DNA of 29,946 nucleotides, taken from a virus. The position numbers and the translations under genes were made by a program. Below the pieces are notes generated by a model. That model did no database searches. It saw only the letters and a list, made by a program, of their open reading frames with translations, and was not told the origin of the DNA. The stretch is from positions 1-29,946 of IMG/VR virus record IMGVR_UViG_3300008116_000326, one strand, 5' to 3'. Shown piece after piece: positions 6,811 to 29,946 of the stretch. Position 1 is the first letter of the stretch. Every line of letters begins with the position of its first letter.

Positions 6811-7566
6811 TTACGATGCGTCCTGTTCTTTAGTCCAATGGATAATCTCCCATGTCCCGTCATGGTGTTCTACCAGAGCGGTACACGATTCTACCCAATC
6901 ACCGTCATTCATATAGAGAATGCCGTCTATCTCTTTTATCTCAGCATGGTGTATATGTCCACAGATAACTCCGTCAAAGCCACGTTTCTTACAGTATTCA
7001 GAGATATTCTTCTCAAAGCCTAACAGAAAGTCTACGGAGGATTTTACTTTATATTTGAGGTACTTACTCAATGACCAATAACCTAATCCAAAGCGTCTAC
7101 GAAAAGAATTGAATTTCGAGTTCCATCCGAGTATCATATCATACAGTTTATCACCAAGGAAAGTCAACCACGGAGCCAACTTAGAGATACCATCAAATAG
7201 GTCGCCATGAGTAACAAGAAAGCGTTTACCATTGGCATCGATATGTTCAGTTTGATTGTGTATCTCTATGGTACCAAAAGAGAATCCATAGGGTATCATA
7301 GGTCGTAGAAATTCATCGTGGTTACCAGCAACATAGATTACTCTGGTACCTCTCTTTGCATGACCAAGGATTCTACGAACTACATTGGAATGAGATTGTT
7401 GCCACCGCCATTTGTTTTGAGTAATCTTCCAAGCATCAATGATATCACCAATAAGGTAGAGAGTATCACAGGTATTATGTTTAAGAAAATTATTCAGTTT
7501 ATCGGCCTGACAATCTCTGGTACCTAAATGTACATCTGAGATAAAGATACTACGATAGGTTTTCAT
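6811..7566 (-). CDS. LpxH-like calcineurin-type metallophosphoesterase (251 aa)
   Basis: Two-metal phosphoesterase signatures are in order: D11-x-H13 (FISDVHLG), G40-D41 (LIGDIIDAW), G81-N82-H83-D84-E (AGNHDEF), H120-G-D122 (THGDLFDG) and a late GHIHHAE. The W-rich stretch after the GD motif (NKWRWQQSH) is typical of UDP-2,3-diacylglucosamine hydrolase (LpxH)-like proteins, which act in lipid A synthesis. The frame opens earlier (7635), but that extension overlies another gene, so ATG 7566 is preferred, giving a 17-bp overlap. The lipid A substrate is inferred from family resemblance only. Confidence 0.8.
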   Translation of the reverse strand: MKTYRSIFISDVHLGTRDCQADKLNNFLKHNTCDTLYLIGDIIDAWKITQNKWRWQQSHSNVVRRILGHAKRGTRVIYVAGNHDEFLRPMIPYGFSFGTIEIHNQTEHIDANGKRFLVTHGDLFDGISKLAPWLTFLGDKLYDMILGWNSKFNSFRRRFGLGYWSLSKYLKYKVKSSVDFLLGFEKNISEYCKKRGFDGVICGHIHHAEIKEIDGILYMNDGDWVESCTALVEHHDGTWEIIHWTKEQDAS

Positions 7567-7735: not shown

Positions 7736-8215
7736 CTATTGTATCTCCATCCATGTGTGGTCACCCATATACTTCACCTGTGTCTGATATTCATAATCTT
7801 CAGGAGCACCACTTGACCAATCCTTTGGACCATTCTGTGTTAAGAGTATATGTTGTTTTCTCTTATCCCATACTAACCAATATACATGACCCATGACTGG
7901 AGAAAACTGGTACACAGCGGCATGAACAGCATCCGTGACATTCAATCTGCGTTTAATATCATCAGCCTGTTTTTGTAATACAGAAACCAGTTCCATAATT
8001 CTATCATATTCTTGCTGGGCATACATCCTAGCATGATTAATCATTATGTCTTTTTGCTGAGTTACAGGTACCAGTTCAAATTTAACTGCGCCTGCCTCTG
8101 TGGGATATTCTGATATATTCCTGTTAAGGAAAGGTACCAGAGTTCCACCTATCTCCGCATCGAAACTATGTCTGCCTTTGGCTAGATTCGATTTTTTACC
8201 TGGTTTTCCAGTCAT
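7736..8215 (-). CDS. DUF2452-like protein (159 aa)
   Basis: Recognised by the run FELVPVTQQKDIMINHARMY, a helix YDRIMELVSVLQKQADDIKR, then YQFSPVMGHVYWLVWD and a C-terminal GDHTWMEIQ, the layout of the DUF2452 family, which includes human C1orf50. The family has no established biochemical role that I know. A phage version of this length is usual. The start ATG 8215 directly joins the upstream gene's stop. Confidence 0.75.
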   Translation of the reverse strand: MTGKPGKKSNLAKGRHSFDAEIGGTLVPFLNRNISEYPTEAGAVKFELVPVTQQKDIMINHARMYAQQEYDRIMELVSVLQKQADDIKRRLNVTDAVHAAVYQFSPVMGHVYWLVWDKRKQHILLTQNGPKDWSSGAPEDYEYQTQVKYMGDHTWMEIQ

Positions 8216-8415
8216 TAAAGAGTGATTATCTTAGAAGCTTCAGGTTGTTTTGGTTCTTTCGGAGTCCATTCTTTCCAACGAATAAAGAAAAAGAGAGTGG
8301 CCACTAAGGTCCACGGAGACCAATCTTCTTTTGTGATGAGATAGATTGTTCCGCCGAGCATAGAAGTATTCCACATAAACGTGAAGAATAATCCGAGGAT
8401 ATTATAGAATATCAT
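8215..8415 (-). CDS. Small membrane protein (66 aa)
   Basis: Two hydrophobic segments are visible (about residues 3-27 and 33-46: YNILGLFFTFMW and LVATLFFFIRW), then a polar tail (KEWTPKEPKQPEASK). This is probably a two-span inner-membrane protein. It overlaps the upstream gene's stop by 4 bp (ATGA). Function unknown. Confidence 0.6.
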   Translation of the reverse strand: MIFYNILGLFFTFMWNTSMLGGTIYLITKEDWSPWTLVATLFFFIRWKEWTPKEPKQPEASKIITL

Positions 8416-8627
8416 TTAATAAAAATAGTGATTTGTAAATCTTTAAATCGGTTACCATAATAGTCTGTGCAAGTCCACAGATCCTCAGAGGAACCCTTTT
8501 GAGGCCGACAAGTAATCGTATCCTCGGTTATTGTGGGAATATAACGGCTAATAGCTCCGGAAGCGCTGGCAAAAACCAGAAGCGTGAGAGCGGTTAGGAT
8601 GGTAAGTTTCGTTTTTACGTTTCGCAT
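8412..8627 (-). CDS. Secreted small protein with signal peptide (71 aa)
   Basis: MRNVKTKLTILTALTLLVFA followed by SASGA is a classic signal peptide with a likely cleavage near residue 24. The mature part has two cysteines (ITCRPQ, LWTCTD) that could form a disulphide, so periplasmic location is likely. Next to a small membrane gene; role unknown. Confidence 0.65.
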   Translation of the reverse strand: MRNVKTKLTILTALTLLVFASASGAISRYIPTITEDTITCRPQKGSSEDLWTCTDYYGNRFKDLQITIFIK

Positions 8628-19159: not shown

Positions 19160-19483
19160 CTATATGTTAAATGAGGAACCGCAACCGCAGGTACCTTTAA
19201 CTTCGGGGTTTGTTATAACAAATTGTGAATTAAATTTTTCTTCTTTATAATCTAATGTTGCTTCCATTAAATATTGTGCTGACATAGAATCAACAAATAC
19301 TTTAACATCATCTTTTTCAATCACAAAATCATCTTCTTCTTGGGTTTCATCAAAACTAAACTCATATTGAAACCCCGAACAACCTCCACCTTTTACAGAC
19401 ATTCTTAATGCCATATTAGGATTCTTTTCTTCTACAATCAAATCTTTTATTTTACTAAATGCATTATCGGTTACTTTAACCAT
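19160..19483 (-). CDS. A-type Fe-S carrier, ErpA/IscA-like (107 aa)
   Basis: The HesB/IscA family passes iron or Fe-S clusters from scaffolds to target proteins. The three conserved cysteines are present: C35 in GGGCSGFQYEF and C99-G-C101 in GTCGCGSSFNI. ITNPEVKGTCGCGSSF reads closer to ErpA than to IscA by memory. Length is normal for the family. The gene begins 1 bp after iscU and sits just upstream of nrdB. AAGGTATAAA precedes the ATG. Confidence 0.9.
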   Translation of the reverse strand: MVKVTDNAFSKIKDLIVEEKNPNMALRMSVKGGGCSGFQYEFSFDETQEEDDFVIEKDDVKVFVDSMSAQYLMEATLDYKEEKFNSQFVITNPEVKGTCGCGSSFNI

Positions 19484-19484
19484 T

Positions 19485-19868
19485 TTATACCTTACATGAA
19501 CATTTAAGTTCGTAATCTTTTATTGCTGCTTTAATCGCATCTTCCGCAAGAATTGAACAATGTATTTTAACGGGAGGTAAAGCCAACTCTTCAGCAATTT
19601 GGGAGTTTTTAATTTGACCAGCTTGTTCAAGTGTTTTGCCTTTAACCCATTCGGTAACAAGTGAACTACTAGCAATAGCAGAACCACAACCATACGTTTT
19701 AAATTTAGCATCTGTGATGATACCATCAATTACCTTAATTTGTAATTTCATCACATCACCACAAGCAGGAGCACCGACCATACCAGTACCTACGGTATCA
19801 TCTATTTCTATCTTACCTACATTTCTTGGATTCTCATAGTGATCCAATACTTTTTCTGAATATGCCAT
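19485..19868 (-). CDS. iscU: Fe-S cluster scaffold IscU (127 aa)
   Basis: IscU builds Fe-S clusters on three cysteines, with sulphur from IscS. All key residues are here: C36 (PACGD, with D38), C61 (TYGCGSA), H103 and C104 (KIHCSIL); LPPVK (97-101) is the HscA-binding motif. It reads very like E. coli and beta-proteobacterial IscU from memory, including MAYSEKV.DHYENPRNVG. The tail ends ELKCSCKV, two extra cysteines that bacterial IscU usually lacks. The start follows the NrdA stop directly; the GAAGGA in NrdA's last codons serves as ribosome-binding site. No IscS, HscA or HscB is seen. Confidence 0.95.
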   Translation of the reverse strand: MAYSEKVLDHYENPRNVGKIEIDDTVGTGMVGAPACGDVMKLQIKVIDGIITDAKFKTYGCGSAIASSSLVTEWVKGKTLEQAGQIKNSQIAEELALPPVKIHCSILAEDAIKAAIKDYELKCSCKV

Positions 19869-25130: not shown

Positions 25131-25474
25131 AGTTTCTTCTTCTCAACAAATTCATTATATTCTTTTAGTGCTTCTGCTGGCATAGGTTCAAAACGAACAC
25201 CTACTGCCAAAATACAATATTTTTGTTCTTCTACTTTTTCTACAACTGAAAATGATCCTGTTTTTGAATTGACAAAAATTACCAGTGAGTTGAAAATTGG
25301 AACACCTAACACAAGAGAATTCAATGCACGAATAAACGGAATTTCATCAAACTCACCTACGAGATTGTATATGTTCTCTTTGTTTACACAAGAAATTGTG
25401 CGAGTTTCGTTCATTACCTCTTGAGAAAATACAAGATTAGGTATCATGCATAAAAGAATTAACAGTTTTTTCAT
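25127..25474 (-). CDS. Exported protein (115 aa)
   Basis: MKKLLILLCMIPNLVFSQEV is a signal peptide (cleavage likely near residue 18). The mature part has cysteines at TISCVNKEN and QKYCILAVG and alternating strands, a probable small disulphide-linked periplasmic domain. ATGA overlaps on both sides show it is co-translated with the two lipoprotein genes. Function unknown. Confidence 0.6.
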   Translation of the reverse strand: MKKLLILLCMIPNLVFSQEVMNETRTISCVNKENIYNLVGEFDEIPFIRALNSLVLGVPIFNSLVIFVNSKTGSFSVVEKVEEQKYCILAVGVRFEPMPAEALKEYNEFVEKKKL

Positions 25475-25755
25475 GGGTTTAAAGCTTTCTGCTGTCTAGC
25501 CCAATTCTGAAATGCCTCATGTTTGGCTTTCAATTCATGGTAGAGACCATAATTTTTAACAATAATGGTTTCAGCAGTTGATAGTTCTACTTTACCTTCC
25601 GGTAGAGTTAGTAGGTTTGGTACCGGTTCCATTAGTTCCTGTGGTGGTGTTGGGAACGGTATCTTTAGCGGCGTGATTGAGCACGCTTGTAAAAGAACTA
25701 GGCAAGTTACACAAAGCGTCATCTTTAGTGTTAATAGATTGTATAATTTTTTCAT
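25471..25755 (-). CDS. Outer-membrane spanin subunit (Rz1-like lipoprotein, 94 aa)
   Basis: The signal peptide ends in a lipobox LLQAC (Cys25), followed by a proline-rich stretch (TPLKIPFPTPPQELMEPVP), typical of o-spanins. It starts inside the i-spanin gene in another frame: the two share 164 bp (25592-25755), as Rz/Rz1 pairs do. After host peptidoglycan is cut, i- and o-spanins fuse the inner and outer membranes. Confidence 0.75.
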   Translation of the reverse strand: MKKLYNLLTLKMTLCVTCLVLLQACSITPLKIPFPTPPQELMEPVPNLLTLPEGKVELSTAETIIVKNYGLYHELKAKHEAFQNWARQQKALNP

Positions 25756-26062
25756 TGTTACTTTTCGTTTCAGTTAGTTGCTTTTTTAAATCATTGGATA
25801 CACTATTTGTAATATCTTGTTGTTGAGTTACTACTTTATCAATTTCTGCCTTTGCGTTTACTAGTATATCTTGTCGACCTTGAAGATAAAAACCTCCAGC
25901 AAATAAAACTATCGATAATATTGTACCAACAATTTTAGCTGGTAGTCTGTACATTAAAGGAATAAATGTAGTAAACTTTAGAAGAACAAAAAGGGCAACA
26001 CCAGTTATGATTATTGCTCCAGGTACCCAAATAGGTAATAGTATTAAAAGCCAATCAAACAT
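25592..26062 (-). CDS. Inner-membrane spanin subunit (Rz-like, 156 aa)
   Basis: Hydrophobic spans near residues 4-29 and 42-60 are followed by a charged helical periplasmic stalk (KAEIDKVVTQQQDITNSV, KKQLTETKSNNEKI), then DALCNLPSSFTSVLNHAA, a phrase typical of Rz-type proteins, and a Thr/Gly-rich tail. One span is usual for i-spanins; a second is unusual. It overlaps the o-spanin by 164 bp. Together with holin and GH19 endolysin, it completes a Gram-negative lysis module. Confidence 0.75.
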   Translation of the reverse strand: MFDWLLILLPIWVPGAIIITGVALFVLLKFTTFIPLMYRLPAKIVGTILSIVLFAGGFYLQGRQDILVNAKAEIDKVVTQQQDITNSVSNDLKKQLTETKSNNEKIIQSINTKDDALCNLPSSFTSVLNHAAKDTVPNTTTGTNGTGTKPTNSTGR

Positions 26063-26065
26063 ATA

Positions 26066-26314
26066 TCAATTAGGTGCTTTCCTGGAAATCATTGCGTAAC
26101 GTTTCTTTTTCTTCATATCAACAGCAGTAGCAGAAACAGGATCAGTACCACTTTGTGGACCAGTAACATTAGTTGGACCAGAAACAGCAATACCACCTAC
26201 GCCATCTTCTTTGACTGGTACACAATTAGGTACCATGCGATTACCTTTTTTCTTTAAGCCTCGGGCTGTATAACCGGTCCAACAAGCTTCTCTTAATTCT
26301 TTAAATGATTTCAT
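26066..26314 (-). CDS. Small virion-type protein with capsid-targeting-like N-terminus (82 aa)
   Basis: The product starts MKSFKELREACWTGYTARGL, then KKKGNRMVPNCVPVKED. MKSFKELRE matches the pattern MK(S/T)FK..(L/I)xE shared with the next three genes and with T4 internal-protein signals; LRE is the candidate cleavage site. The CW.GY.A.G.KKKG..MVPNCVP run is a recurrent short module I recall from phage head proteins. The frame opens at GTG 26326, but ATG 26314 overlaps the stop of the upstream gene (TAATG) and is preferred. Confidence 0.65.
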   Translation of the reverse strand: MKSFKELREACWTGYTARGLKKKGNRMVPNCVPVKEDGVGGIAVSGPTNVTGPQSGTDPVSATAVDMKKKKRYAMISRKAPN

Positions 26315-27099
26315 TAACAATTCCACTTTCTTAATGCTAAGGCTTTACGAGTAGGTTCACCATTAGGTTTTTTCATAGCACCTTGCATACCGCCCATACG
26401 AGCACAGAATGATTTTCTACGATTAGCAGCTTTAGAACCAGGCTTTAATTTTGATGGTGGTGTTGTCACCGCCATAGACAATTTTGAACCTGGATTCTCT
26501 CTACGATAAGAAGCAATACCTTTACGATTCAAACCACCTTTAGGATCTTTGCCTGCTTTTCTTTGCCAAGCGGCCGATTCTTCAATGAGTTCTTCATCAC
26601 TTATTGATTCTAATCTTTCCCAAAGTAATTCTGCATCTATATTGTATTCTTGAGCTGCGGCTTCTACCATCTCTTCAATAACATCAAAGAGATATTCAAC
26701 TCCTTCGTTTTTACTAGACATATACCCAGCAGCGGTTTCAATGTAATCGGCAGCTAGTGTTACCTTAGATTGAACCCAAGCTGGTATTTGCATATCTTCG
26801 TCTTTAACTACATCTCGCATCATGTTAATTGAACGCTCCATTTGGTCCAATTGATTCATAATCATACTGCCTTCATCATCCATTTCTTTACCCATGGCAA
26901 TAGCGACATGATTCTCACTAACAGATTTCCATCCACCACCCATTGCTTTGTATTTTTTTGATGCCCAACCGTTTGCATAAGCTGATGGGTATACTGCAAA
27001 CTTGGATTTAGCAGCAGCCTTGGCTCTAGCCCATTTTTCTGGACTTGTTGGAACATTTTTCTCAGATATAATTTCTAAAAATTGTTTAAATGTTTTCAT
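26314..27099 (-). CDS. Internal-protein-like basic protein, DUF6321-like C-terminus (261 aa)
   Basis: The product starts MKTFKQFLEIISEKNVPTSP, with ISE as candidate (L/I)xE cleavage. Then WARAKAAAKSKFAVYPSAYA is a recurrent phage module (residues 23-50), followed by an acidic middle. The C-terminal part (GKDPKGGLNRKGIASYRREN ... RKSFCARMGGMQGAMK ... RKALALRKWNC) resembles the DUF6321 family as I recall it: basic, with conserved FCARM and ALALRKW. A virion-packaged DNA-binding protein is inferred from the N-terminus and charge. Confidence 0.65.
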   Translation of the reverse strand: MKTFKQFLEIISEKNVPTSPEKWARAKAAAKSKFAVYPSAYANGWASKKYKAMGGGWKSVSENHVAIAMGKEMDDEGSMIMNQLDQMERSINMMRDVVKDEDMQIPAWVQSKVTLAADYIETAAGYMSSKNEGVEYLFDVIEEMVEAAAQEYNIDAELLWERLESISDEELIEESAAWQRKAGKDPKGGLNRKGIASYRRENPGSKLSMAVTTPPSKLKPGSKAANRRKSFCARMGGMQGAMKKPNGEPTRKALALRKWNC

Positions 27100-27557
27100 T
27101 GTTTGTTATCCATACTTTCAGTTTTAACATTGATTGGTGCACCACGGCGTTCTGGATTAGGATCTTCTCTGCGCTTTCTTTGAGCAGCAGAAGCACGTGC
27201 ATCTTTACCTATTGCGTGAGCTTTGGCCTGAGGTAAACATTTTGGTTTGCCTTCGCCTGGTTCTCTAGCGCAATCACCCTTAATATTGCCTTTGGTGTCC
27301 ATACGAACCCATTTTTGCTTAAACCATTTTCGCAAATCTTCTTTTAAATCATTTAATTCTTTAATCCAATCATCAGGAGTTTTACCGTGTTTGGATTTAA
27401 AATCGTTGTGTAATTCTTCACCAGAAATATTATGGTCTTTACTGATGGACATCATCAGTTTATTAATTGTTTCGTAACTGTGGCTGTCTAATTTTTTTAG
27501 ACCTTTTTCCAATTTTGCAACATGGTCTTCGGATATAAATTGTTTAAATGATTTCAT
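27096..27557 (-). CDS. Internal-protein-like basic protein, DUF5872-like (153 aa)
   Basis: The product starts MKSFKQFISEDHVAKLEKGL; ISE is the candidate cleavage site. The C-terminal half (RKWFKQKWVRMDTKGNIKGD, CAREPGEGKPKCLP, KRREDPNPERRGAP) resembles what I recall as the DUF5872 family: basic, two cysteines, KxKCLP. ATGA overlap with the neighbouring start suggests a shared operon. A packaged DNA-binding role is inference. Confidence 0.65.
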   Translation of the reverse strand: MKSFKQFISEDHVAKLEKGLKKLDSHSYETINKLMMSISKDHNISGEELHNDFKSKHGKTPDDWIKELNDLKEDLRKWFKQKWVRMDTKGNIKGDCAREPGEGKPKCLPQAKAHAIGKDARASAAQRKRREDPNPERRGAPINVKTESMDNKQ

Positions 27558-27796
27558 TTATTTTTACGAATATGATTGTTGGCAATACGAGTACCGGCAA
27601 TATAGTGGTAATGGTTCATATTCAATACACCTTTATTACGAATATTGATAAGTCTTTCAACAATTTGGTGTAGTTCCACATCCGTCTTAACATCTTCACG
27701 GGCTAGTTCAAGCAAACGAATCATTAATGGAATGTCCACCGAAATAGTATCTTTTTTGTCGGTAGCTTCTTTGATATATGTTTTAAATGTTTTCAT
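27554..27796 (-). CDS. Conserved phage protein with capsid-targeting-like N-terminus (80 aa)
   Basis: The product starts MKTFKTYIKEATDKKDTISV, with IKE as candidate cleavage. The rest, IPLMIRLLELAREDVKTDVE, then VERLINIRNKGVLNMNHY, is a helical module that I recall in several T4-like phage proteins. It is the upstream-most gene of the four-gene cassette. Function unknown. Confidence 0.65.
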   Translation of the reverse strand: MKTFKTYIKEATDKKDTISVDIPLMIRLLELAREDVKTDVELHQIVERLINIRNKGVLNMNHYHYIAGTRIANNHIRKNK

Positions 27797-28179
27797 ATTT
27801 TTCTTAATATCTCTGCGACATTCATATCGACTGGTACATCAGCCGTCTTTATATTTTTACCATTAACACCCCATACGGCATCAGGCATTATGTTTAAGTA
27901 TAGTAGAAAAGTTTTCAAAACATCATAATCTTTTTCATCTATCCTGTAAAATAATATTCTTGCGGTCACTTCTGGACCAAAAACATTATTTAACAGAATG
28001 ATATGATTTAATATCAATCGTTCTTTGAGTATTTTGGATGCCTTATATCTACGAAACAATCGTTTTAGATATTTGGTTCTTTTAATATCTCCTTCAAACT
28101 CCGACATAACATAATTTGGTGCATTATAACACTTCATTGCGTATATCATAAAGTTATCTTCATTCAAGTCATCAATCAT
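27793..28179 (-). CDS. Conserved T4-like phage hypothetical protein (128 aa)
   Basis: The product starts MIDDLNEDNFMIYAMKCYNA, with DIKRTKYLKRLFRRY, RLILNHIILLNNVFG and VLKTFLLYLNIMP following. This NFxIYAxKxYNxP ... LILNHIIxLxNVFG ... LKTFLLYLNxMP layout is a conserved protein I recall from T4-like cyanophages, near structural genes; function unknown to me. It lies immediately downstream of a terminator. Confidence 0.75.
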   Translation of the reverse strand: MIDDLNEDNFMIYAMKCYNAPNYVMSEFEGDIKRTKYLKRLFRRYKASKILKERLILNHIILLNNVFGPEVTARILFYRIDEKDYDVLKTFLLYLNIMPDAVWGVNGKNIKTADVPVDMNVAEILRKI

Positions 28180-28218: not shown

Positions 28219-28866
28219 TTACAGACCGCCAAATACAGCGTTAGAACTTGTATTACCTGATTGAATATTGGAAGCAATTGGATTTGCCAAGCAAACAATA
28301 GTTTCTTTTAGGAAACGAATTGCGCCGTCATTATTAATCTTACGAGTAATTTTGTTCCAACCTTGATTTACACTTCCAAGCTTGGTATTAGCAACAGTAC
28401 TACCGTAACCATATACAGTACCTTGAGTATTGGACATGCGACTTCCTGTTACCAAGATTATGTCGTTTGCATAGTTGGCGTAAGTAGTAGTTGAATCGTG
28501 AAGTAGTGTATTGGCGAAATAGACTAATTTGCCAGCACCAAAGTTTGCAGTAATAATGTTATTTAAAACAACAGTATTACCAGAAACAGAAGCTACAGTA
28601 TTGTTTGCTCTCCAAAAGGCAACATCAGAAACATCAAAATTTGATGCATCCTTAGCAATTTTAGAAATAACACTATTAGGATCGTTGTCGCCATAGACAT
28701 GAACACCTGGCTGAACTGCACTTGATACGTTTGCAGTAAACACCAATACTCTCGATCCGCCTAGAGTGAGATTGGCGGTTGTACCTGTCGCAACAGACAC
28801 CACTTCACGGGAATTCGGCATCATTGGCCGATTATTCGCAAAGTCTAAATTTCCCCAAAATGACAT
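28219..28866 (-). CDS. Probable phage structural protein (215 aa)
   Basis: The product starts MSFWGNLDFANNRPMMPNSR, then a strand-rich, low-charge protein (VVSVATGTTANLTLGGSRVL; VLNNIITANFGAGKLVYFAN) ending GNTSSNAVFGGL. MSFWGNLDxANNxP is an opening that I recall for virion proteins of T4-like phages. Threonine, asparagine and glycine richness suits a surface or head-decoration protein; the exact part is unknown. AAAAGGAGAAAAAA supplies the ribosome-binding site. Confidence 0.65.
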   Translation of the reverse strand: MSFWGNLDFANNRPMMPNSREVVSVATGTTANLTLGGSRVLVFTANVSSAVQPGVHVYGDNDPNSVISKIAKDASNFDVSDVAFWRANNTVASVSGNTVVLNNIITANFGAGKLVYFANTLLHDSTTTYANYANDIILVTGSRMSNTQGTVYGYGSTVANTKLGSVNQGWNKITRKINNDGAIRFLKETIVCLANPIASNIQSGNTSSNAVFGGL

Positions 28867-28897: not shown

Positions 28898-29946
28898 CTA
28901 TTTATCGTTCTTATTATTTTCTTTTTTACCAGATTTCTTATCAATATTAGGCTGACCAGGACGATTTCTCATTATTGGATCAATTTCAATACTGTCCCTT
29001 TTAACACCAGTTAGGGTGGTACCACCACTTAATGTTGCTGCAGCTTGTGGTTTGTTCTCACCAAGACTGTCTTTTTTGTCTGTCTGGCTCATCTTAGGTT
29101 TTTTACCATAGGTGGCCACAGACTTATCTTCTTTTTCATGGTCATACATATCTTCTTTGACCACACCTTTTCTCTTGTATAAATCTTTAATCATACGAGC
29201 AGATTTAGACATTTGACGTTTTCTGTCAGCCACTTGGTTACCACCATTGGCACCATCAGCAGGAGTTTGAGTTGCTGCTTGTGGGTCTTGCCACATATCT
29301 TCATGTACAGAATTAATTGTTACTTTTAAATGTGGAAATTTGCTCTTTATTGTTGTTGCAGCAGATTTTGCACTATCTTTGTTTTTATGTATAGTTTTTA
29401 CTTGGCCATTGACAGAAACTTTGTGTACTAATTCTTTGCTTCCTCTAACCGCCCTTAAAATGTCTTTTACATCTTCTTCAATATTTTCTTCATTTTGTTT
29501 ACCATAGTAAGCACCAAGAGCCATCTTTTTACGCTCAGCTGTAGATTTGCCAGCAAATTTAGGATTCTTTGAATGAACAAAGTCGTGAATCCAATCTCCA
29601 GCAGAAGCATCTTTACCTAGAACTTCATTAATCATTTCATCAAGTTCAACTTCTTCGTTATTCAAATGTTTTTCTAAACGGTCGATAGCAGCTGACATAT
29701 AATCTTTTTTTGCTTCACGGTTAGGCACATTGGATTTAGAAGGTTCTTGATGTAATCTTTCTTGACGTTCTTTTTCAATGTCATTGTGTTTTTTTTCTCT
29801 AACTGCAGCAGCTGCACGAAATCTTTCTAATGCAGTAGGTTTACTTGCTTTACTTGCTTCTAATTGAACTTCTTCACCAGCTAAAAGCCTCTTAAAAAAT
29901 CCAACCTTTTTTGGTTTAGGTTTAGGTTTAAATGCAGGTTTTGGTG
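28898..29946 (-). CDS. Virion-associated protein, C-terminal part (at least 349 codons)
   Basis: The frame is open to the right edge and beyond, so the true start lies outside; the GTG at 29728 is an internal valine codon. The visible N-terminal side is lysine/proline-rich (KPKPKPKKVGFFKRLLAGEE), then charged helices, then DWIHDFVHSKNPKFAGKSTA followed by ERKKMALGAYYGKQ, a short module I recall from several phage head-region proteins. The C-terminal part is basic and disordered, ending KKSGKKENNKNDK. No catalytic motif. A head or internal-protein role is inferred from location. Confidence 0.65.
   Translation of the reverse strand, partial: PKPAFKPKPKPKKVGFFKRLLAGEEVQLEASKASKPTALERFRAAAAVREKKHNDIEKERQERLHQEPSKSNVPNREAKKDYMSAAIDRLEKHLNNEEVELDEMINEVLGKDASAGDWIHDFVHSKNPKFAGKSTAERKKMALGAYYGKQNEENIEEDVKDILRAVRGSKELVHKVSVNGQVKTIHKNKDSAKSAATTIKSKFPHLKVTINSVHEDMWQDPQAATQTPADGANGGNQVADRKRQMSKSARMIKDLYKRKGVVKEDMYDHEKEDKSVATYGKKPKMSQTDKKDSLGENKPQAAATLSGGTTLTGVKRDSIEIDPIMRNRPGQPNIDKKSGKKENNKNDK
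28899..28906 (-). promoter_or_regulatory. Possible T4-type late promoter GATAAATA
   Basis: Minus strand GATAAATA, fitting a relaxed T4-like late box NATAAATA, 33 bp before ATG 28866, at the end of the upstream gene. The T4 box is TATAAATA; one mismatch. No sigma70 -35 goes with it, as expected for late promoters. An AT-rich genome gives this string by chance fairly often. Confidence 0.3.

Follow-up and report, generated by a model that had tools for sequence, protein, structure and literature searches.

A cassette of four modular genes with a T4-like leader, probably encoding internal head proteins of an aquatic virus

A four-gene cassette in a T4-like virus

The window analysed here is a 29,946-base virus fragment (IMG/VR IMGVR_UViG_3300008116_000326), and thus a partial genome, of a T4-like virus from water. 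At positions 26066-27796 it carries a cassette of four adjacent minus-strand genes, whose neighbours overlap by 4 bp or have a TAATG in common, and each of the four products starts with MK(S/T)FK followed by an (L/I)xE site (Table 1). The site that ends this leader is ISE in genes 2 and 3, IKE in gene 4 and LRE in gene 1, with the ISE of gene 2 lying at residue 13, ahead of its first module. The F/Y at position 4 and the hydrophobic residue at position 7 are complete in genes 2-4 (F4, F/Y7); gene 1 has a short variant. The predicted mature proteins are of 7.6-27.5 kDa, with a pI of 9.1-10.1 and a net charge of only +3 to +9, so that an earlier note on this DNA, which called the bodies strongly basic, was right about their being basic and overstated the degree. 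We place the start of gene 1 at ATG 26311; a longer GTG start (VELLMK...) was rejected, since the added stretch only overlaps the end of gene 2 (RKWNC-stop), an artefact that relatives of gene 1 also display (MELLMK).

The chain of overlapping genes is headed by a DUF7207 gene, a conserved syntenic neighbour with homologues in three cyanophages (SZBM1_135, CREM2_159 and SCSM1_96). Upstream of it lies a gene whose pairing with SSCSM1_95 rests on gene order and N-terminus, not on BLAST, and then a partial reading frame whose leaderless homologues are found, in relatives, between the cytidylyltransferase gene and the cassette. In one close relative (L083) the order in one direction is a KxDG protein, a cytidylyltransferase, two large leaderless proteins, a WGN protein, DUF7207 and the cassette, and the edge of our window falls inside this block. 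The T4 late-promoter consensus has a single exact match in the window, far from the cassette. Two other features are recorded in passing: next to the cassette (25471-26062), an Rz-like spanin gene (weak PHROG match) that overlaps a small lipoprotein-like gene, with a lysis block following, and, at 19160-19868 between nrdA-like and nrdB-like genes, two adjacent small genes that by eye resemble those for Fe-S assembly (IscU-like and IscA-like).

Table 1 Features of the cassette and of its upstream neighbours, in window coordinates.
Feature	Position	Strand	Description
Partial ORF	28898..29944	-	5' end outside window; homologous to leaderless proteins of 350-575 aa
Gene starting MSFWGNLDFANN	28219..28866	-	Syntenic counterpart SSCSM1_95, annotated virion protein
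DUF7207 gene	27793..28179	-	Directly upstream of and overlapping the cassette; no leader; Pfam 2.9e-35
Gene 4	27554..27796	-	80 aa: leader + module F (KKDTISVDIPLMIRLLELAREDVKTD...)
Gene 4 leader MKTFKTYIKE	27767..27796	-	Predicted cut after residue 10; profile score 19.2
Gene 3	27096..27557	-	153 aa: leader + module B (helical) + module C (Cys, basic)
Gene 3 leader MKSFKQFISE	27528..27557	-	Predicted cut after residue 10; profile score 22.6
Gene 3 internal LKE, residues 71-73	27339..27347	-	Directly before module C (DLRKWF)
Gene 2	26314..27099	-	261 aa: leader + module D (KNVPTSPEKW...YPSAYANGW) + linker + module E (DUF6321)
Gene 2 leader MKTFKQFLEIISE	27061..27099	-	Predicted cut after residue 13; profile score 14.5
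Gene 2 internal IEE, residues 172-174	26578..26586	-	Directly before DUF6321 module (SAAWQRK)
Gene 1	26066..26311	-	81 aa, N-terminus MKSFKELRE: leader + Cys module a (ACWTGYTARGLKKKGNRMVPNCVP) + tail rich in Gly/Pro, basic end
Gene 1 leader	26288..26311	-	First 8 codons to predicted cut (LRE before ACW); short variant; profile score 9.8

Conservation of the leader

The pattern MK[ST]F..[LIVM]xE occurs in 4 of the 59 genes of the window, all four adjacent. Column shuffling of N-termini taken from six related contigs (1251 genes) gives an expectation of 0.30 matches in the whole set (~2.4e-4 per gene). The observation from which the earlier note started, that four N-termini combine MK(S/T)FK with (L/I)xE, is both present in the sequence and far from chance.

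From IMG/VR contigs with relatives of genes 2-4 we gathered 109 distinct leaders of ten residues. All of them (100%) have F, L or Y at position 4 (F in 100), positions 7 and 8 are aromatic or aliphatic in 97% and 96%, compared to backgrounds of 43% and 40%, and positions 5, 6 and 9 are variable. As the set was chosen with a T4-inspired pattern, the figures for positions 3, 4 and 10 are partly circular, whereas that for position 7 is not. Mutagenesis of T4 IPIII ties targeting mainly to residues 4 and 7 and processing to residues 8 and 10 (PMC9026906), and the aquatic leader keeps these positions. A second comparison, in which selection made no use of LxE, found [LIVMF]xE by residue 13 in 91% of 89 unique body homologues that start with MK[ST][FL], compared to 23% of other proteins.

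When the 248 T4 ORFs are scored with a profile built from the aquatic-phage leaders, IPIII comes out on top, followed by IPII and then IPI, with the same caveat of circularity, since its training set was picked in part with a T4-like pattern. Trained instead on N-termini unselected for the pattern, half of which are leaderless or have wrong starts, the profile puts IPI first and IPIII only eighth. The leader profile misses T4 Alt, a real cargo. We found no description of such a leader in the literature on aquatic T4-like phages, a search that did not extend to subscription papers or preprints.

Cassette bodies as shuffled modules

The four bodies had been described as otherwise unrelated. They indeed show no mutual resemblance, but they have a common origin: proteins of PHROG 727 and PHROG 10346 contain, in one chain, regions that match genes 1, 2 and 3. 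Using seeds for ten modules (A, a, B, C, D, E for DUF6321, F, G, N for a nucleotidyltransferase and H for KxDG), we distinguished 53 architectures, 30 of them leader-bearing, and modules that sit on separate genes in the cassette occur fused in other phages. The cassette bodies are modules of a shuffled family and not independent inventions, and the earlier description of them is not supported in that form. One protein (L100_9356_10807, 483 residues) has five modules in the order leader-A-B-C-D-E. Its gene (L100:9356-10807) also holds a second complete leader internally (MKTFKSFMEKNETLDE) and is likely a read-through fusion of two genes.

The DUF6321-like body proposed earlier is a real DUF6321 domain (PF19846), at residues 183-259 of gene 2 with 78.4 bits over a gathering cut-off of 28.5. 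The proposed DUF5872 likeness (PF19197) does not survive: residues 17-56 of gene 2 score 16.7 bits, under the gathering cut-off of 27.5, and gene 3 has no match. Structure prediction for genes 2 and 3 yielded low-confidence models only (mean pLDDT 67), Foldseek searches with these models found no match in the PDB at E<=0.001, and the named matches among viral models were almost all other DUF6321 proteins. We therefore claim no function from fold.

Module junctions and the prohead protease

In multi-module proteins, (L/I/V)xE stands directly before modules C, D and E at 56 of 58 non-redundant junctions, where about 7 would be expected (internal junctions only, similar linkers removed). An in-register site precedes C in 24 of 24, D in 12 of 12 and E in 20 of 22 cases, with shuffled-linker means of 2.3, 2.1 and 2.8. 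Position -3 is hydrophobic and position -1 is E in 98% each before C and in 100% each before D; before E the site exists and its register shifts by one. Modules B and G start without a junction site, so that our claim of polyproteins covers only C, D and E; for A/a and F the evidence is weaker.

The gp21 protease of T4 cuts after L/I-x-E (PMC9026906), and the simplest reading of these sites suggests that the polyproteins may be cut into modules by a gp21 prohead protease, although no cut has been seen. Removal of the leader is likewise inferred, from conservation of the motif only, without a cut N-terminus having been seen. Such cutting into separate modules would account for the occurrence of the same modules on separate genes here and in one polyprotein in other phages. 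A gp21-type gene (Peptidase_S77) is present in 18 of 22 related contigs and was not found in the 29,946-base window, which, being a fragment, does not show its absence from the genome. The major capsid proteins of the clade have LxE near residue 50 (for example QLNE, LLTE and ILTE).

Could the shared N-terminus be a common recombination or translation-start segment for body swapping instead of a sorting signal? Its AT-richness and its place at the start of all four cassette genes, the shuffling of the bodies and one fused protein with a second complete leader inside would all fit such a segment. At the DNA level, however, the leader varies synonymously while its residues hold: 121 DNA forms encode 91 peptides, with TTT and TTC used 95 and 26 times for F4, which implies selection on the peptide. 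Position 7 swaps between aromatic and aliphatic residues and is always hydrophobic, and the (L/I)xE rule repeats at internal junctions, far from start codons. We consider this explanation very improbable and continue to read the leader as a targeting sequence.

Other proteins with the leader

The leader also appears to be detachable and to carry many cargoes. In related contigs it heads a cytidylyltransferase/NMNAT-like protein (MKSFLELVEE..FGRMNPPTTGH) and a protein that contains HAEDRPLMHG as well as a KxDG motif; the KxDG body occurs without the leader in S-SZBM1_141 and in a related contig (G004). The closest long relative has a small leader-bearing gene (G008 7015-7248) just upstream of gp21 (7818-8462).

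Three observations lie beside this. The Cas9-like virion protein of S-CREM2 (OR473000 7704-10313; L236) has LRFASFMAEAAV at about residues 17-28, which is a leader only if a later start is assumed, a choice made post hoc. A family of about 105 aa (MKSFKSFLSESVNISGDFNGNLY) has a perfect leader and lies between terminase genes (L241, S-SZBM1_191; L255 44215-44535, SSCSM1_30); it is missing from the virion lists of both S-SZBM1 and S-SCSM1. Finally, podovirus-type pelagiphages (L249, L250; 2480-2725) have a leaderless 81-aa DUF6321 gene between their scaffold and capsid genes.

Such gene positions bear on a serious rival, in which the proteins are packaged and cleaved, yet serve inside the head as structural or DNA-condensing core proteins, like T4 gp67 and gp68, and are not injected effectors. 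The gene next to gp21 and the pelagiphage genes between scaffold and capsid would suit a core component, as would the basic mature forms of the cassette, whereas the variable, combinatorial architectures are unlike conserved core proteins and the leader is otherwise found on enzymes (SAM hydrolase, kinase, cytidylyltransferase), for which a structural role is not apparent. On this evidence we regard a structural role as unlikely.

Virion evidence from cyanophage isolates

No mass spectrometry (MS) data exist for the phage of the window, and evidence from virions comes from homologues only, in cyanophages. The virion table of S-CREM2 supplies coordinates and lists 52 of 219 proteins (PMC10665884), 30 virion proteins were detected for S-SZBM1 (PMC9146016), and for S-SCSM1 we used the 'virion protein' labels of the sequence record, of which we counted 48, with 45 detected according to the paper. 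The virions with homologues of cassette proteins were CsCl-purified.

In S-CREM2, the five top leader scores among the 219 annotated proteins all belong to virion proteins (P=0.0006), namely ORF154 (cytidylyltransferase), ORF6 (SAM hydrolase), ORF14 (kinase), ORF13 and ORF136. S-SZBM1 by itself does not support a link between leader and virion: two perfect leaders (191 and 192) went undetected, and its cytidylyltransferase (MRFRQFIIEA) was detected. For S-SCSM1, the virion proteins include the NMNAT (MKSFLQFLKEA) but not SSCSM1_30 (MKTFKQFMSES). Across the three phages, 5 of 8 proteins with strong leaders are virion proteins (P=0.009), a proportion that falls to only 3 of 6 outside the NMNAT family (P=0.09). 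A leader-bearing cytidylyltransferase/NMNAT is in the virion lists of all three, and a cytidylyltransferase was also detected in S-SM1. Over whole proteomes, Mann-Whitney tests of leader score against virion status were null (AUC 0.46 and 0.45); because tail and shell parts make up most of the virion proteins, only extreme leader scores are informative.

The modules themselves give a second link, with 4 of 5 module proteins across the three cyanophages in the MS virion lists (P=0.0045). The four detected, CREM2_137 (modules B and E, DUF6321), CREM2_160 (C and a), SZBM1_139 (a) and SCSM1_29 (C, a and DUF6321), have no leader, and the fifth, SZBM1_192 (DUF6321), was not detected and has a perfect one. 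Modules can thus enter virions in another way, and leader and modules are partly separate links to the virion. SCSM1_29 matches genes 3, 2 and 1 of the window at 3e-11, 9e-18 and 2e-5, and CREM2_160 adjoins the DUF7207 homologue, upstream of primase and nrdA/B, which is the position of the cassette. The sequences are related, and all these P values are therefore optimistic.

An alternative places the module proteins in the neck or tail, or has them merely co-purifying with the particles, rather than inside the head. In its favour, CREM2_137 and SCSM1_29 are encoded between terminase genes with structural genes as neighbours, and the S-CREM2 authors allow for co-purification of abundant proteins. 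Leaders and LxE junctions, however, fit prohead processing, and detection was repeated in independent phages, which leaves a location outside the head improbable to us. We regard packaging of the cassette proteins in the virion as well supported by homology, leader and context, within the limit that only homologues have been detected.

Proposed function

Taken together, we think it likely that the cassette encodes T4-style internal head proteins. In this model the first 8-13 residues would act as a capsid-targeting sequence, bringing each protein into the core of the prohead, where a gp21-type protease would then cleave after (L/I)xE and remove the leader. Multi-module proteins would probably be split further, at the (L/I/V)xE directly before C, D and E. 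The freed modules, small, basic and partly Cys-paired, would remain with the packaged DNA and probably be ejected with it, acting early in the host. The core of the earlier proposal, a modular set of internal proteins that carry a T4-type capsid-targeting leader, is supported by the leader positions, the ranks of the T4 internal proteins, gp21 in relatives and the cyanophage virions. Targeting by the leader, cleavage and ejection are inferred, the last of these, like any function in the host, by analogy with T4. In T4, IPI-III block restriction by GmrSD enzymes once injected (PMC12373910), and our most likely guess is a role in anti-restriction or host take-over, as for IPI-III and Alt.

A broader possibility, which we put forward only tentatively, is that aquatic T4-like phages have a combinatorial cargo system in which a detachable leader is combined with interchangeable modules, several of them preceded by protease sites and encoded either as separate genes or as polyproteins that the prohead protease would cut into single modules within the capsid for injection, and in which the leader also marks NMNAT, SAM hydrolase, kinase and possibly Cas9 and so predicts injected effectors. 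Cyanophage virions repeatedly hold enzymes of this kind (NMNAT, SAM hydrolase, kinase, Cas9-like), and their authors were unable to say whether these are cargo or contaminants; with a leader predictive of cargo, this distinction would become testable from sequence. If true, the cutting of polyproteins within a phage capsid would be an unusual delivery route for several small proteins, and DUF6321 and related families, common in aquatic viruses, would gain a first role.

Comparison with known systems

The giant phages phiKZ and SPN3US also have head proteins with propeptides that are removed by a prohead protease, but those propeptides are mostly longer than 100 residues and end in AxE or SxE sites, whereas the cassette leaders have 8-13 residues and (L/I)xE. 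T4 Alt, a packaged ADP-ribosyltransferase, is a large head-carried enzyme comparable to the leader-bearing cytidylyltransferase/NMNAT in the same operon of relatives, although its N-terminus does not fit the profile and the type of enzyme differs. Also comparable are the virion NMNAT/cytidylyltransferase, SAM hydrolase and kinase of S-CREM2, S-SCSM1 and S-SZBM1, which are MS-detected and have leader-like N-termini (MKNFSSFLTE, MKSFLQFLKE, MRFRQFIIE, MKDFDSFLEE and MKRFDAFLTE); in the accessible parts of the three papers we found no link of these enzymes to a targeting leader. These phages are cyanophages, whereas the host of the window's phage is unidentified.

The closest likeness is to T4 IPI, IPII and IPIII, which have an N-terminal leader of 10-19 residues with F/Y at position 4, hydrophobic residues at 7 and 8 and E at the cut, followed by small basic bodies encoded by several genes per phage that vary between phages. 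Unlike them, the cassette bodies match no T4 internal-protein family in Pfam or PHROGs and belong to a family of shuffled modules, with LxE at the junctions and up to five modules per protein. The cassette is, in these respects, a variant of T4-type internal proteins.
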